Positions 7,372 to 30,753 of a stretch of DNA of 64,000 bases are shown piece by piece. The DNA lies in assembly GCF_015330125.1 (NCBI RefSeq), contig NZ_JADDXR010000002.1:248001-312000 (forward strand), given 5' to 3'. The notes under the pieces were generated by a model. That model ran no database searches. It saw only the letters and a list, made by a program, of their open reading frames with translations, and was not told the origin of the DNA. A program made the position numbers and the translations under genes. Position 1 is the stretch's first letter. Each line of letters starts with the position of its first letter. Origin of the DNA: Zobellia nedashkovskayae. Its GTDB lineage: Bacteria > Bacteroidota > Bacteroidia > Flavobacteriales > Flavobacteriaceae.

Positions 7372-7396
7372 ATACCCCAAAAAATATAGGGGGTAT
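7372..7396. promoter_or_regulatory. Distal C4/G4 inverted-repeat site (site A) upstream of glnK-amt
   Basis: A perfect 7-bp inverted repeat, ATACCCC (7372-7378) and GGGGTAT (7390-7396), around 11 A/T-rich bases. Its centre is about 79 bases upstream of the -7 box of the PII gene. An equivalent site lies at the same distance upstream of glutamine synthetase II. Probable operator for a dimeric regulator; the protein is unknown. Confidence 0.6.
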
Positions 7397-7427
7397 AATT
7401 CCTATAAACATAAAAATAACTACTTAG

Positions 7428-7446
7428 ACCCCAAAATTTTTAGGGT
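7428..7446. promoter_or_regulatory. Proximal C4/G3 inverted-repeat site (site B) upstream of glnK-amt
   Basis: ACCC (7428-7431) and GGGT (7443-7446) are separated by 11 bases, the same spacing as site A. The centre is about 26 bases before the -7 box, the position of a class II activator site, and no -33 TTTG is present at this promoter. Confidence 0.55.
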
Positions 7447-7462
7447 GTTAATAATTTTAACA

Positions 7463-7470
7463 TACATTTG
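7463..7470 (+). promoter_or_regulatory. -7 box TACATTTG of the PII-amt operon
   Basis: An exact TAnnTTTG match 24 bases before the PII start codon. A -33 TTTG is missing at the expected distance; the CCCC/GGGT site B occupies that place. Confidence 0.7.
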
Positions 7471-7493: not shown

Positions 7494-7832
7494 ATGAAAC
7501 AAATCGAGGCAATTATTAGAAAATCTAAGTTTGATGAAGTTAAAAAAGCACTACATCAAATAGAGGTTAACTTCTTCAGTTACTGGGATGTAACCGGAGT
7601 AGGAAATGAAAAACAAGGTCATGTATATAGAGGTATCTCTTATAGCACGAGCGACATTCAAAGAAGATACCTTTCTATAGTAGTATCTGATGAATTTGCA
7701 CAACGTACTGTTGACACCATTCTTGAAACAGCCTACACTGGCAATGTTGGAGATGGAAAAATCTTTGTTTCTGAAGTTGTAGAAGCATACAGAATCCGTA
7801 CGAAAGAAAACGGACAATCTGGAATCAACTAA
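7494..7832 (+). CDS. glnK: P-II family nitrogen regulatory protein
   Basis: A 112-residue PII signal protein, expected to be trimeric, to sense 2-oxoglutarate and ATP/ADP, and to gate the ammonium transporter encoded next. The C-terminal signatures TGNVGDGKIFV and YRIRTKENG are intact. The T-loop is unusual: GHVYRGISYSTSDIQRRYL is two residues shorter than the canonical GHTELYRGAEY form. Tyr50 lies in the place of the uridylylated Tyr51 of E. coli. It is 28 bases from amt, so they form one operon. Two C4/G4 sites and a TACATTTG box precede it. Confidence 0.93.
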   Translation: MKQIEAIIRKSKFDEVKKALHQIEVNFFSYWDVTGVGNEKQGHVYRGISYSTSDIQRRYLSIVVSDEFAQRTVDTILETAYTGNVGDGKIFVSEVVEAYRIRTKENGQSGIN

Positions 7833-7860: not shown

Positions 7861-9093
7861 ATGGACGCAGGATTATTTACAGCAAATAACGTTTGGATGA
7901 TGTTGGCTACCGCCTTGGTATTCTTCATGCACACCGGATTTTCTTTTTTAGAAATCGGCCTTACAAGACAAAAAAATACAATAAACATATTATTTAAGAA
8001 CATCTTTATTATTACAGGTGGGCTTTTACTCTATTACGCATGGGGATTTAACATGATGTACCCCGGTTTTGAAGAAGGATCTTCAGGAATTTTCGGATTT
8101 GCAGGCTTTGGTATTGCAGCCCCTGAAAACGGAATGACTCCTGAATATGCAGATGGAGGTTACACATGGTGGACTGACTTCTTGTTTCAAGGTATGTTCG
8201 CAGCAACAGCAGCAACTATAGTATCTGGTGCAGTTGCAGAACGTATTAAAATTGGAGCCTTTATGATTTTCACTGTTGTTTACGTAGGACTTGTTTATCC
8301 TATAGTAGGCGCTTGGAAATGGGGTGGCGGTTTCTTGGATTCATGGGGTTTCTATGATTTCGCAGGTTCTACATTAGTTCACTCTGTTGGAGGTTGGGCC
8401 GCATTGGTTGCTATCTTCCTATTAGGATCACGTATTGGTAAATTTGATGAAGACGGTAAGCCAAAAGCAATACCTGGTCATAGTATTCCAATGGCAACAG
8501 CCGGTGTACTTATCCTTTGGTTGGGATGGTTTGGTTTTAACGGTGGTTCTGTACTATCTGCTGATCCAGAATTAACCTCTCTAGTATTGGTAACTACAAG
8601 TTTAGCTGCAGCAGCAGGTGGTTTTGGAGCTATGATTTTATCAACTATACTTTACAAGAACTTGGATTTAACTATGTTCTTAAACGGTATTCTTGGTGGT
8701 CTAGTTGGTATCACGGCAGGTGCAGATTTAATGTCTCCTAATGAAGCCGTAGTTATCGGTTTCCTAGCCGGTCTATTAATTGTTTTTGCAGTTTCTCTAG
8801 TAGATAAAATGAAATTAGATGATCCAGTTGGTGCCGTTGCGGTACACCTTGTATGTGGTATCTGGGGAACTTTGGCAGTTGGTCTTTTTGGAGCAAAAGC
8901 CGGTGGTGGTCAATTTATGGTTCAGCTGTACGGTGTATTGATCGTAGGTGCCTTCTGCGTAATTTGTACATTCATTATCCTAGGTGCCTTAAAAGCTACT
9001 ATGGGACTTAGAGTAAGTAAAGAAGAAGAGATCGAAGGTCTTGACATTCATGAACATGGAATGGATGCTTACCCAGATTTCATAAACGATTAA
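7861..9093 (+). CDS. amtB: Ammonium transporter Amt
   Basis: Inner-membrane Amt/Rh channel of 410 residues with about 11 membrane helices and no cleaved signal. The pore twin-histidines are His174 (STLVHSVGGWAALVA) and His329 (GAVAVHLVCGIWGTLA). Asp167 and the aromatic gate region DFLFQGMFAATA fit the ammonium-binding vestibule. It is co-transcribed with the PII gene upstream, the usual pairing in which PII plugs the channel when nitrogen is plentiful. A stable hairpin follows the stop, then a porin gene. Confidence 0.96.
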   Translation: MDAGLFTANNVWMMLATALVFFMHTGFSFLEIGLTRQKNTINILFKNIFIITGGLLLYYAWGFNMMYPGFEEGSSGIFGFAGFGIAAPENGMTPEYADGGYTWWTDFLFQGMFAATAATIVSGAVAERIKIGAFMIFTVVYVGLVYPIVGAWKWGGGFLDSWGFYDFAGSTLVHSVGGWAALVAIFLLGSRIGKFDEDGKPKAIPGHSIPMATAGVLILWLGWFGFNGGSVLSADPELTSLVLVTTSLAAAAGGFGAMILSTILYKNLDLTMFLNGILGGLVGITAGADLMSPNEAVVIGFLAGLLIVFAVSLVDKMKLDDPVGAVAVHLVCGIWGTLAVGLFGAKAGGGQFMVQLYGVLIVGAFCVICTFIILGALKATMGLRVSKEEEIEGLDIHEHGMDAYPDFIND

Positions 9094-9207: not shown

Positions 9208-10284
9208 ATGAAAGCGATTACAAATACAAAATACGTAAAAAATCTATTTTTTCTAGCAATACTGCTTTTCTCTGCAACAGCTGTTGTTGCACAAGAGGAA
9301 GAAGAAGAAACTGAACCAAAGTTTACTTTTACCGGTTCTATTGACGCATACTACCGCGCTAATCTAAACGGAGATAACTCTGCGCCAGATGGTGCTCCAA
9401 ACGCTGCGCCAGGTTCATCATTCGCAAATTTGCCAGGTTTTTCGTTAGGTATGGCAAACTTTGTTGCAGGTTATGAAGGCGAAAAAGTTGGTTTTGTAGC
9501 AGATTTAGTATTTGGCCCAAGAGGAACAGATGCTATATTCGCTTCTCCAATTTATTCAGCAACAGGTAATATAGTAAATCAATTATATGCCTACTGGAAT
9601 GTAAGTGACGCTGTTACTTTAACCTTTGGTAACTTCAATACGTTCTTAGGCTATGAGGTTATATCACCGGTTGCCAATTTCAACTATAGTACGTCTTACT
9701 TGTTTTCTTATGGTCCATTTTCTCATACTGGTTTAAAGGCTGATATTGCCTTATCAGATGATTTCAGCTTAATGTTAGCAGTAATGAACCCAACTGATAT
9801 GACCGAATTGAATGTTACAGGTAAATATACATACGGAGCACAAATAGGATATAGCGGACAGTATTTAAACCTATTGATTGATAACGGTGCTTACGAAGTT
9901 GATTATACAGGTGGATTTGATTTATCTGATTCTTTCTTCCTAGGATTGAACGCAGCTTATTTTGATGGTGACGGCGCAGGAAGTTTTGCTGGTGCAGCAA
10001 TTTACCCTCAATTAACAACTTCAGAAAGCTTTGCAATTGGTCTTAGAGCAGAATATTTTGCTGAAACTGACTCTTTCGGAGCTATTGGAACAAGTACTGC
10101 CGATGGAGATGCAAGTGTATTTGCGGTTACTTTAACAGGTAGTGCTACTATCGGAAATTTGATGATCAAGCCTGAACTTCGTTTAGATACGGCTTCAGAT
10201 GATTCTGGATATTTTCTTGATAGTGACTTAATGGCGCAAAAGAGCTTATCTTCTTTTGTTTTAGCTGCAGTGTACTCTTTCTAA
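9208..10284 (+). CDS. Outer-membrane beta-barrel porin
   Basis: A 358-residue protein with a signal peptide (cleavage after VVAQ about residue 28) and a very acidic mature N-terminus (EEEEEETEP). It then has repeated amphipathic strands and ends in the outer-membrane signature VLAAVYSF. The strand pattern and motifs such as FGNFNTFLGYEVISP resemble the beta-barrel porin-2 (OmpL-like) group. Its place directly after PII-amt suggests it helps small nitrogen compounds cross the outer membrane; that is inferred from context only. It ends at a strong terminator. Confidence 0.8.
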   Translation: MKAITNTKYVKNLFFLAILLFSATAVVAQEEEEETEPKFTFTGSIDAYYRANLNGDNSAPDGAPNAAPGSSFANLPGFSLGMANFVAGYEGEKVGFVADLVFGPRGTDAIFASPIYSATGNIVNQLYAYWNVSDAVTLTFGNFNTFLGYEVISPVANFNYSTSYLFSYGPFSHTGLKADIALSDDFSLMLAVMNPTDMTELNVTGKYTYGAQIGYSGQYLNLLIDNGAYEVDYTGGFDLSDSFFLGLNAAYFDGDGAGSFAGAAIYPQLTTSESFAIGLRAEYFAETDSFGAIGTSTADGDASVFAVTLTGSATIGNLMIKPELRLDTASDDSGYFLDSDLMAQKSLSSFVLAAVYSF

Positions 10285-16479: not shown

Positions 16480-16926
16480 CTAAAAGGGATTCTTTCCTAT
16501 TGGTGCACTTGACACTACGTTGGATAGGATAATATGGGTACGTGTCTCACCGTATTGAATTAGTTTATCTATAAATCGCTCCAGGTGAAACTGATCTTTT
16601 AATACAACCTCCATTACAATATTCTCATTCCCAGTAATACGATAACAGTTTACCACTTCCTTATACGTCTTTACGGTCTCTAAAAAAGGTTTTAGTTTCC
16701 CCATGAAGGCTCTTAAAGTTATTATGGCTTTTAGATGGTGTCCTGTTTTTGCATGTGAAACTTTAGTGTTATAACCTTCTATAATACCTAGGTCTTCCAT
16801 CTTCTTTATGCGCTCTGCAACAGCGGGTGCCGTAAGGCCTACTTGCCTACCAATGTCCACATAGGTTTCGCGAGCATTTGCCTGTAAAAGTTTGAGTATT
16901 TTCCAGTTTAAATCGTCTATATTCAT
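16480..16926 (-). CDS. Lrp/AsnC family transcriptional regulator
   Basis: A 148-residue regulator. The N-terminal winged HTH (DDLNWKILKLLQANARETYV, then GRQVGLTAPAVAERIKKME) is joined to a C-terminal RAM domain for ligand binding and oligomerisation (KTYKEVVNCYRITGNENIVM). It probably senses an amino acid and may be autoregulated. The 126-base divergent gap to the next gene contains several short imperfect palindromes (for example CTAATTCTTAGTATTAG near 17031-17047) that could be its sites. No metabolic partner is adjacent, so the ligand is unassigned. Confidence 0.94.
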   Translation of the reverse strand: MNIDDLNWKILKLLQANARETYVDIGRQVGLTAPAVAERIKKMEDLGIIEGYNTKVSHAKTGHHLKAIITLRAFMGKLKPFLETVKTYKEVVNCYRITGNENIVMEVVLKDQFHLERFIDKLIQYGETRTHIILSNVVSSAPIGKNPF

Positions 16927-27338: not shown

Positions 27339-29525
27339 CTATTTAATAGACAACAACTCACGGTATTTAGTTAAAGGCCAAAAGCGGTTATCCACTAACC
27401 TTTCCAACTTATCACAATGCATTCGTATTTCATCAAAATATGGTTTTACATTATCGCAATAAGCAAATGCTTTTTTATGGGTATCGGTAAGCTTGTTCGC
27501 TTTTCTTCTGGCATCGATCATTGCATCTGTCTGCTTTTTAAGCTCGGTAACATGCTCGGCAATCTGCTCAATAATTCCCGACTGGCCATCCGTCAATTTC
27601 CTATGTGCGGCACCATAAATTTCTTTTAAGCCCAAAACATTTTTAATCAAAATATTCTGGTATTCTATTACCGAAGGAATAATATGATTATAAACTAATT
27701 CATTGAAAACCCTACCCTCAATTTGAATATGTAGAATATAAGCTTCCAGCTCAACTTCTTGTCTTGCCGTAACCTCTTTTTCACTCATTACACCCATAGA
27801 CTCAAAAAGGCTTAAACTCTCTTTTGAAGTCAAAATCTGTAAAGCTTCTGGCGTATTTTTATTATTACTTAATTTTCTTCGCTTTGCTTCTTTCTCCCAT
27901 TCATCGCTATACCCATCTCCATCAAAACGAATACGTTTTGAAGTTTTGATATATTCACGCAACACATTAAAAACAGCCTCATCTTTTTTTAGGCTTTTTT
28001 TATCTACCAATGCATCTACCTCCTTTTTAAACTCTTGCAACTGTTTCGCTACAATTGTATTTAAAATAGTCATTGGTTTTGCGCAGTTTGTATTTGACCC
28101 AACACCACGCATTTCAAATTTATTACCAGTAAACGCAAAGGGAGATGTACGGTTACGATCTGTATTATCTAATAAAATTTCAGGTATTTTACCAACAACG
28201 TTCAGTTTAAGTTCCGTTTTCTCTTCCGGCGATAATTTCCCTTTGGACACACCTTCCAATTCGTCTAAAACACTACTTAACTGTTTACCAACAAATATAG
28301 ATAAGATAGCTGGTGGCGCTTCATTAGACCCCAATCGATGATCATTACCTGCTGAGGCAATAGACGATCGCAACAATTCTTCATAGGTATCAACAGCTTT
28401 AATCGTATTTATAAAAAACGTCAAAAACTGAAGATTCTTCATTGGCGTAGAACCAGGACTCAATAAATTTACCCCCGTATCCGTAGCTAATGACCAGTTA
28501 TTATGCTTACCCGATCCGTTAATATCTGCAAATGGTTTTTCATGAAAAAGAACCTTTAGATGATGCCTATCCGCAATACGGTCCATAACATCCATTAAAA
28601 GCAAATTATGATCTACCGCCAAATTTGCTTCTTCATAAACAGGAGCCAATTCAAATTGATTAGGAGCCACTTCATTATGTCTTGTTTTTAATGGAATACC
28701 AAGGCGCATACACTCTACCTCTAATTCCTTCATGAAATTAATGGCCCGTAAAGGAATTACTCCAAAATAATGATCGTCTAACTGCTGACCTTTTGCCGCT
28801 GAATGACCAACTAATGTTCGCCCAGTTAAACTAATATCAATTCTAGAAAAAGCAAGTTCCTTATCTACCAAGAAATATTCTTGTTCCCAACCCAAAGTAG
28901 CATTTACTTTTACTACTGTTTTATCAAAATATCTAGCTACGGCCGTTGCAGCTTCGTCAACAGCACCTAGAGCACGCAACAAAGGTGCTTTATTATCTAA
29001 GGCCTCTCCGGTATACGAAACGAATACCGTAGGTATACATAAGGTAGTATCATATACAAAAGCTGGACTTGTTGGATCCCATGCAGTGTATCCTCTTGCC
29101 TCAAATGTATTACGAATTCCGCCACTGGGAAAACTAGATGCATCTGGTTCTTGTTGTACCAATTGTCCGCCTCCAAATTTCTCCAAAGCCCTACCATCCG
29201 GCATTAAATCAAAAAAGGCATCATGCTTCTCTGCGGTAGCTCCAGTAAGTGGCTGAAACCAGTGCGTATAATGTGTAGCACCCATTTCAATAGCCCACCC
29301 CTTCATGGCTTCGGCCACTTGATCCGCAATTTTTCTATCAATTTTTGACCCTGAAAAAATAGCGCCCTGTACACTTGCCAAAGCATCTTTGGTAAGGTAT
29401 TGTAACATGCGTTGATTATTGAATACATTGTTCGCAAAAAGCTCTGATCTACGCCCATTTTCATCAACGCTTACACGCTCTCTTTTTCTACTCTCGGCAA
29501 TAGCATCAAATCGTTGTCTAGACAT
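27339..29525 (-). CDS. glnN: Glutamine synthetase type III
   Basis: ATP-dependent amination of glutamate by the large GSIII class (728 aa, dodecameric in Bacteroides). GSIII-specific N-terminal motifs are NVFNNQRMLQYL and THYTHWFQPLTGATAEKHD. The catalytic core has WEQEYFLVD, TRHNEVAPNQFELAPVYEE, HEKPFADINGSGKHNNWSLA and the RTSPFAFTGNKFEMRGVGSN block. It diverges from the GSII gene, with 211 bases between them that hold two C4/G4 sites. The class has no adenylylation loop, so control is probably transcriptional or by effectors. Confidence 0.97.
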   Translation of the reverse strand: MSRQRFDAIAESRKRERVSVDENGRRSELFANNVFNNQRMLQYLTKDALASVQGAIFSGSKIDRKIADQVAEAMKGWAIEMGATHYTHWFQPLTGATAEKHDAFFDLMPDGRALEKFGGGQLVQQEPDASSFPSGGIRNTFEARGYTAWDPTSPAFVYDTTLCIPTVFVSYTGEALDNKAPLLRALGAVDEAATAVARYFDKTVVKVNATLGWEQEYFLVDKELAFSRIDISLTGRTLVGHSAAKGQQLDDHYFGVIPLRAINFMKELEVECMRLGIPLKTRHNEVAPNQFELAPVYEEANLAVDHNLLLMDVMDRIADRHHLKVLFHEKPFADINGSGKHNNWSLATDTGVNLLSPGSTPMKNLQFLTFFINTIKAVDTYEELLRSSIASAGNDHRLGSNEAPPAILSIFVGKQLSSVLDELEGVSKGKLSPEEKTELKLNVVGKIPEILLDNTDRNRTSPFAFTGNKFEMRGVGSNTNCAKPMTILNTIVAKQLQEFKKEVDALVDKKSLKKDEAVFNVLREYIKTSKRIRFDGDGYSDEWEKEAKRRKLSNNKNTPEALQILTSKESLSLFESMGVMSEKEVTARQEVELEAYILHIQIEGRVFNELVYNHIIPSVIEYQNILIKNVLGLKEIYGAAHRKLTDGQSGIIEQIAEHVTELKKQTDAMIDARRKANKLTDTHKKAFAYCDNVKPYFDEIRMHCDKLERLVDNRFWPLTKYRELLSIK

Positions 29526-29605: not shown

Positions 29606-29629
29606 ATACCCCATTAAAAACGGGGCTAT
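29606..29629. promoter_or_regulatory. Distal C4/G4 inverted-repeat site (site C) between the two glutamine synthetases
   Basis: ATACCCC (29606-29612) and GGGG plus CTAT (29622-29629) around nine A/T-rich bases. The centre is about 78 bases upstream of the GSII -7 box, matching site A at the PII-amt promoter (about 79). Confidence 0.6.
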
Positions 29630-29656: not shown

Positions 29657-29678
29657 TTACCCCCCTAAAAATTAGTAT
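29657..29678. promoter_or_regulatory. Proximal C-rich site (site D) upstream of GSII
   Basis: TTACCCCCC, an A/T core, then TTAGTAT. The left arm is strong and the right arm degenerate. The centre lies about 27 bases upstream of the -7 box, as for site B at PII-amt (about 26). Confidence 0.45.
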
Positions 29679-29694
29679 AATTCAGTAAAAAACA

Positions 29695-29702
29695 TATTTT
29701 TG
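29695..29702 (+). promoter_or_regulatory. -7 box TATTTTTG of glutamine synthetase II
   Basis: An exact TAnnTTTG match 35 bases before the ATG. No -33 TTTG occurs at the normal distance, suggesting an activator-dependent promoter like that of PII-amt. Confidence 0.65.
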
Positions 29703-29736: not shown

Positions 29737-30753
29737 ATGAGCAAAACTAAATTAGAGTACATCTGGTTGGATGGATATTTCCCCACACAGAACATGCGTA
29801 GCAAAACTAAAGTTGTAAACGATTTTGGTGGTAAATTAGAGGATTGCGATATGTGGTCTTTTGATGGAAGCTCAACAAGACAAGCCGAAGGCGGGTCTTC
29901 CGACTGTTTATTAAAACCTGTTGCAATCTATCCAGATCCTGCACGTAGAGATGCCTTTTTAGTAATGACTGAGGTCTTGAATGCTGATGGTACTGCACAT
30001 GTTTCAAACGGTAGAGCCGGTATTGATGACGATGATAATGATTTCTGGTTCGGTTTTGAACAAGAGTACTTTATCATGGATACAAAAACACAACTTCCGT
30101 TAGGTTTCCCTATCGGTGGATACCCTGCTCCACAGGGAATGTACTACTGTTCTGTAGGTGGTTTACATACACACGGTAGAGAACTAGTTGAAAAGCACGC
30201 TGATCTTTGTATTGATGCTGGCTTAAATTTTGAAGGAATCAACCAAGAAGTTGCTTCTGGACAATGGGAATTTCAATTGTTCGCTAAGGGTGCTAAAAAA
30301 GCTGGAGATGAAATCTGGGTAGCTAGATACCTTTTAGATAGATTAACTGAACAATATGGTTACTATATTGATTACCACCCAAAACCATTAGGTAAAGATA
30401 TGGACTGGAATGGTTCTGGTATGCATGCCAACTTCTCTAATGAGGTTTTAAGAACATGTGGTTCTAAAGAAACATACGAGAAAATATGTGAAGCTTTCCG
30501 TCCAGTTGTAAAAGAACATATTGAAGTTTATGGTGAATTTAACGACCAACGTTTGACTGGTCTTCACGAAACTGCTTCTATTACCGACTTTAGCTTTGGT
30601 GTTTCCGATAGAGGTGCCTCTATCCGTATTCCAATTATTACAGTAGAGCAAGGCTGGAAAGGTTGGTTGGAAGATAGAAGACCTGCTTCTAACGGTGATC
30701 CATACAAGATTGCTGGTAGAATTATCAAAACAGTTAAATCTGCTAAGATTTAA
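29737..30753 (+). CDS. glnA: Glutamine synthetase type II (eukaryote-like)
   Basis: A 338-residue, beta-grasp plus catalytic domain enzyme of the GSII class found in eukaryotes, some actinobacteria and Bacteroidota. Diagnostic motifs are LEYIWLDGYFPTQNMRSKTK, WSFDGSSTRQAEGGSSD, FGFEQEYFIMD, GINQEVASGQWEFQLF and WNGSGMHANFSN, with RGASIRIPI near the end. Its divergent partner is the GSIII gene, so the cell has two unrelated glutamine synthetases side by side. A perfect palindromic terminator follows. Confidence 0.96.
   Translation: MSKTKLEYIWLDGYFPTQNMRSKTKVVNDFGGKLEDCDMWSFDGSSTRQAEGGSSDCLLKPVAIYPDPARRDAFLVMTEVLNADGTAHVSNGRAGIDDDDNDFWFGFEQEYFIMDTKTQLPLGFPIGGYPAPQGMYYCSVGGLHTHGRELVEKHADLCIDAGLNFEGINQEVASGQWEFQLFAKGAKKAGDEIWVARYLLDRLTEQYGYYIDYHPKPLGKDMDWNGSGMHANFSNEVLRTCGSKETYEKICEAFRPVVKEHIEVYGEFNDQRLTGLHETASITDFSFGVSDRGASIRIPIITVEQGWKGWLEDRRPASNGDPYKIAGRIIKTVKSAKI

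Follow-up and report, generated by a model that had tools for sequence, protein, structure and literature searches.

Judging by the sequences compared, the two CCC-N11-GGG dyads in front of the PII-amt operon of Zobellia nedashkovskayae are a real and conserved operator pair, which belongs to a nitrogen regulon. Probably they serve a single regulon for nitrogen assimilation in Flavobacteriaceae as its operator, where a nitrogen-status activator would bind at about −38 and −91. A single protein, a nitrogen signal, activation and contacts with polymerase are what we infer for this operator.

In the window, i.e., the whole analyzed stretch of 64,000 nucleotides, the distal dyad ATACCCC-N11-GGGGTAT is located at 7372–7396 and the proximal dyad ACCCCAAAATTTTTAGGGT (ACCC-N11-GGGT, outer letters ACCCC...AGGGT) at 7428–7446. 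Both have A/T-rich centers, and neither is assigned to a strand. Read as CCC-N11-GGG, they are centered at 7384 and 7437, which confirms the distance of 53 bp given in the first-pass annotation. The −7 box TACATTTG (7463–7470, plus strand) lies 26 bp downstream of the proximal center, close to where it had been placed, and no TTTG is found 19–21 bases ahead of it, in agreement with the claim that the −33 element is missing. In Flavobacterium psychrophilum the TAnnTTTG element lies at −12 to −5 (PMC9723704). The dyad centers therefore fall at about −38 and −91, and the proximal dyad covers the −33 region. On the same numbering, a conserved A-tract between the dyads (7412–7416, plus strand) extends from about −63 to −59. 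A third palindrome, TGTTAA-N5-TTAACA (7446–7462, no strand), adjoins the −7 box. Three genes follow on the plus strand, encoding PII protein (7494–7832, PF00543), an ammonium transporter (7861–9093, PF00909) and a BBP2 porin (9208–10284, PF07642). The porin gene is probably a member of the PII-amt operon, since at other loci the pair precedes operons made up of porin, amt and PII genes. A BBP2 porin accompanies amt and PII under one promoter in the window and at L308, L217, L226, L219 and L444, and is perhaps an outer-membrane channel for ammonium uptake.

Conservation was assessed in 81 promoters, that of the window and those of the 80 best relatives among the PII matches listed; the window PII shares 94–96% identity with its Zobellia matches. 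The strict pair with a −7 box, at a permitted dyad spacing of 49–57 bp, was found upstream of PII in 71 of the 81 promoters, versus none of 1620 dinucleotide-shuffled upstream regions and none of 871 segments of 300 bp taken elsewhere in these loci; the expected conservation in related genomes was thus observed. Ten promoters fail the strict test, including L100, which has one long palindrome and no pair. CCC-N11-GGG alone occurs in all 81 promoters (shuffled mean 2.2). At unlimited spacing, two exact A/T-centered dyads were detected in 44 promoters and one in 37, and all 44 dyad–dyad distances were 52–54 bp; with one mismatch permitted, two dyads were present in 66 promoters and one in 15, the distances being 52–55 bp. 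A profile anchored on the −7 box could be built from 75 of the 81 rows, the anchoring rules being unmet in L037, L045, L059, L090, L100 and L114. It contains CCC at −87 to −85, GGG at −73 to −71, TT at −64/−63, the A-tract at −51 to −47 (A 0.77–0.92), CCC at −34 to −32, GGG at −20 to −18 and TTTTAA ahead of the box, so that both dyads, the A-tract and the box itself are represented in it. Since relatives share descent, these counts are not independent, and recurrence of the pair at unrelated genes is the stronger argument.

The nearest such recurrence is the promoter of a glutamine synthetase read as type II (GSII; 29737–30753, plus strand, PF03951 and PF00120). From the same intergenic region the gene of glutamine synthetase III (GSIII; 27339–29525, minus strand) is transcribed away. 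At the GSII promoter the distal dyad is located at 29609–29625 (center 29617, no strand), and the −7 box TATTTTTG at 29695–29702 (plus strand). The proximal site is represented by its left arm alone, CCCCCC (29660–29665, plus strand), with TAT in place of the expected GGG; the spacing between distal dyad and left proximal arm is the same as at PII. Among relatives, 25 of 30 GSII promoters align on the anchored layout. In their profile the distal CCC reaches 0.56–0.88, the distal GGG 0.80–0.96 and the proximal CCC 0.88–0.92, percentages that are inflated because rows were admitted by the C and G arms, the right proximal arm excepted; the latter shows merely 0.24–0.52 G. The five rows outside the profile do not satisfy the anchoring rules: L134, L139, L143 and L152 have sites with a different box spacing, and L155 has no site by eye. 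The first-pass annotation had described the same layout at GSII. The distal dyad, the spacing and the −7 box agree with that description, but the nearer site is usually a half-site.

The same pair architecture was found at further unrelated genes. Besides PII and GSII, it precedes porin-led operons with amt, some of them also with PII and often divergent from gltB (L308, L217, L226, L219), a second amt (L265), the urtA gene in a cluster for urea transport and urease (L433) and alanine dehydrogenase (L317, L311, L239). At L433, UrtA, UrtB and urease alpha were named above the cut-offs and UrtD just under its own. At L239 the site lies about 20 bp ahead of the start codon, and no −7 box follows. 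Twenty 20-kb stretches, selected mostly around such target genes, were scored, and 17 of them contain a pair. Thus the list of targets proposed earlier is retained for PII-amt and GSII and is extended by the unlisted BBP2 porin, second amt, alanine dehydrogenase and urtA. The glutamate synthase (GOGAT) core promoter does not belong to it: no pair was seen in 20 upstream regions, in each of which 260 bases were read by eye. In a few Zobellia-like GOGAT regions, runs of CCC separated by about 51 bp are located roughly 180 bases upstream, and gltB is often divergent from, or downstream of, a porin-PII-amt promoter.

A four-block weight model built from the PII promoters was scanned over both strands of the window and 372 non-training loci (1.86 Mb). 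This DNA was fetched rather than randomly chosen, and the window itself is in the training set. Above a score of 12 the model gave 249 hits, of which 248 were near nitrogen genes and one away from them (L319, score 16.7); in this count loci overlap, palindromes score on both strands and some PII loci are close to those of the training set by descent. A hit was regarded as near if it was no more than 1.6 kb from a match to any of nine query proteins, namely PII, two Amt, the porin, two glutamine synthetases (GSII and GSIII), gltB, alanine dehydrogenase and urtA, the queries for urtA and alanine dehydrogenase having been chosen after the pair was seen before these genes. The scanned DNA away from query matches amounts to 1.11 Mb. 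Hits above 30, collapsed by local sequence, came to 76: 35 at PII-amt, 23 at glutamine synthetase, one at urtA and the rest at porin/amt operons. In the window, the PII and GSII promoters alone score, the window being part of the training set. In the fetched DNA, one operator is therefore common to genes of nitrogen uptake and assimilation and rare elsewhere, an outcome that had been named as support for a regulon.

Simple patterns behave differently from the promoter model. In the window ACCC-N9..13-GGGT has five matches versus a shuffled mean of 1.92 (4 of 100 shuffles reach five), and CCCC-N7..13-GGGG has two versus 0.85. In the genome of Z. nedashkovskayae the single site ACCC-N9..12-GGGT is not enriched (148, versus 133 for the reversed pattern), nor is the loose pair ACCC-N9..13-GGG-N30..38-ACCC (13 forward and 5 reverse, versus 12 and 11 for the reversed pattern). 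Among these 18 loose pairs, the PII and GSII ones alone looked real, and 20 single sites chosen by eye in the same genome provided no further target. A/T-centered sites in 16 operator-bearing genomes were found at 98 forward places versus 55 in the control; the places listed included none from G000 or G001. Inspection of 40 listed places outside PII and GSII revealed three regulon sites in the first 20 (L308 at porin-amt, L311 and L317 at alanine dehydrogenase), none in the second 20, and no regulator gene with a site of its own among the 40. Equal frequency of such pairs at unrelated promoters, named as a refuting outcome, was not observed in the fetched DNA, where the hits of the promoter model are almost all beside nitrogen genes; the loose patterns by themselves are at control level genome-wide. 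The earlier interpretation is thus supported.

An explanation of the repeats by chance, terminators or RNA hairpins can be given almost no credence. It could draw on the control-level frequency of single sites and loose pairs, and on lookalikes that read as terminators (L174, L310). However, it is contradicted by conservation, as the pair holds a fixed position upstream of a −7 box at non-homologous genes and was absent from every shuffled region. As for the distribution of the operator, a strict pattern gave 42 matches over 198 genomes of the phylum; six of those listed resemble the operator by eye, all within 19 genomes of the same family. Since this pattern misses 13 of these 19 genomes, its absence elsewhere in the phylum is weak evidence.

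The activator would probably work as follows. A putative dimeric DNA-binding protein would read CCC-N11-GGG. One dimer would cover the −33 region from a center at about −38; another would bind at about −91, on the same side of the helix and five turns farther upstream. Together they would recruit sigma-A polymerase to a promoter with a good TAnnTTTG box and without TTTG. The nearer dimer would make contacts of the class II type with polymerase, whose alpha C-terminal domain would dock on the A-tract separating the two dimers; the distal dimer would reinforce recruitment. Under nitrogen shortage this would increase ammonium uptake (porin, Amt, PII) and glutamine synthetase II, and in some species also urea uptake and alanine dehydrogenase. 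The A-tract, at about −63 to −59, falls where class II activators of E. coli have the alpha domain bound on their upstream side. By this analogy it is a possible docking place of the polymerase alpha domain.

Activation is favored by three features: the missing −33 TTTG, the loss of the promoter-side proximal arm at GSII and the A-tract at the alpha-domain position. An unlikely, though not negligible, alternative is that the operator binds an AmtR-like repressor, two dimers of which would sit cooperatively in nitrogen plenty, the nearer covering −33, and would leave in shortage. Repression is consistent with the overlap of the nearer dyad with the −33 region, and it fits the alanine dehydrogenase site at L239, which adjoins the start codon and has no −7 box after it. 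The absence of the −33 TTTG argues against it; moreover, a distal dyad at −91 is unneeded for blocking, and the nearer site, which would have to block, is the one that has decayed at GSII. Activation by two dimers is the preferred reading.

Box strings of known nitrogen regulators were counted in the 81 PII promoters. NtcA is a cyanobacterial regulator of the CRP/FNR family with the box GTA-N8-TAC. Its site likewise replaces an upstream promoter element, and its targets include PII, amt, glutamine synthetase and urt genes; the arm spacing differs, however, and the NtcA box occurs in one promoter versus a shuffled mean of 2.85. GlnR/TnrA of Bacillus belong to the MerR family, have box arms of three bases at N11 and control targets including amtB-glnK. 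The three-base arms at N11 and the nitrogen genes are shared, but the arm sequence of the dyads is different, and the small MerR protein is distributed alike over genomes with and without the operator. AmtR, a TetR family repressor of Corynebacterium, also controls amt and PII genes through palindromes, but it is a repressor, and its CTAT-N6-ATAG box occurs in one promoter versus a shuffled mean of 0.1. With NtrC/sigma-54 systems the operator shares palindrome pairs before glutamine synthetase and PII-amt, whereas its dyads stand at a sigma-A box; GCAC-N-GTGC was found in none of the promoters and the sigma-54 −24/−12 box in one (versus 0.4). The actinobacterial GlnR box was present in none or one. 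Thus the statement that the operator matches no named regulon is upheld for NtcA, NtrC, sigma-54, AmtR and actinobacterial GlnR, each with boxes in 0–1 of the 81 promoters. A likeness to the lux box was dropped (0 of 81). In architecture the operator resembles tandem CRP promoters of E. coli, where a class II site close to the promoter is joined by another some five turns farther upstream and the alpha domain lies between the two, but motif, arm spacing and signal differ. Among the entries listed in topical searches of open-license literature, there was no nitrogen regulator or operator of this kind for Flavobacteriaceae.

Candidate regulators of the Lrp/AsnC, Rrf2, MerR and HTH_8 families were compared by presence and absence; for MerR, Rrf2 and HTH_8 the search covered 23, 25 and 25 chosen genomes of 149 drawn. 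Strong model hits surround PII/GSII in G043, G052, G099, G106, G137 and G139, and nothing above 12 is found there in five small genomes (G004, G020, G064, G065, G095). The sole regulator recognized in the shared neighborhood is an Lrp/AsnC protein encoded between the two operons (16480–16926, minus strand), and the Lrp family often senses nitrogen compounds. Its role as the regulator is nevertheless very improbable. Six operator-bearing genomes (G043, G052, G085, G099, G113, G139) lack the orthologue, having no orthologue-class match (best E 2e-16 to 2e-11), and it is present in the operator-lacking G064. Its candidacy is contradicted by this distribution, unless another Lrp paralogue took over there. 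In 20 further stretches of 20 kb, a search for recurrent proteins found no regulator in at least three loci, except an Lrp paralogue in three. An Rrf2 (IscR-like) protein was rejected, being absent from 5 of 12 operator-bearing genomes (G046, G052, G085, G099, G139). The Fis-type (HTH_8) regulator, present in 12 of 12 operator-bearing and 4 of 5 operator-lacking genomes, has an uninformative distribution.

The third palindrome, a GlnR/TnrA-like TGTNA-N7-TNACA box, is present in 25 of the 81 PII promoters (shuffled mean 0.6) and is separate from the dyads. It abuts the −7 box in 21 of the 25 and lies elsewhere upstream in four Arenibacter loci (L062, L069, L070, L107). The copy at 7446–7462 is possibly the site of a second regulator. 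It also bears on the proposal that a small GlnR/TnrA-like MerR protein (about 110 aa) is the regulator, as does the GlnR/TnrA box TGT-N11-ACA, which shares its arm spacing with the dyads. By analogy, the N11 arm geometry and the separate palindrome could serve as a lead to MerR rather than as a sign of membership. This candidate is doubtful: the small MerR protein was found in 23 of 23 genomes, including five operator-lacking ones and eight without a close PII or GSII match, and its DNA-reading region is much the same throughout; its distribution is uninformative.

Four genomes without a PII match retain the operator, at porin operons or at GSII (L232, L219, L308, L156): G009 and G029, which have none, and G068 and G085, which are outside the 104 genomes with a match. 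PII is therefore probably not the needed sensor. With somewhat less than even probability, the whole could be attributed to a Flavobacteriaceae regulator from a family not previously linked to nitrogen, with PII-independent sensing, acting by way of two dimers in a rigid array (CCC-N11-GGG twice, 53 bp apart) in place of the −33 element, the third palindrome at some PII promoters marking a second regulator. The analysis defines the exact operator and its location at the promoter, and supplies a short list of targets together with genomes that have or lack the operator; by means of the operator and this genome contrast, a direct search for the regulator protein is possible. Among marine degraders of algal matter Flavobacteriaceae are a major group, and nitrogen is often scarce in the sea.

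Several minor observations were made. The gene order crcB, PII, amt, pyrF, prfA, AIR-synthase-like gene, GSIII, GSII, Na/Ca exchanger is conserved throughout the family (window 4672–34958; L263–L277 among the loci listed) and is compacted in small genomes. At L174 (1505) and L310 (1444), AAAAACCCC-A/T-GGGGTTTTT stands after a response-regulator gene, resembles a two-way terminator and mimics the operator. A single genome contains several copies of a dispersed repeat, ACCCTGAAATAAATTCAGGGT (G113, contig C1, e.g., 1535504–1535524). Finally, ACCCCAACCTACATWGGGGTCCWTCTGTTTRT recurs at L248, L251 and L252 in three genomes (G288, G304, G240) of one genus from another family.
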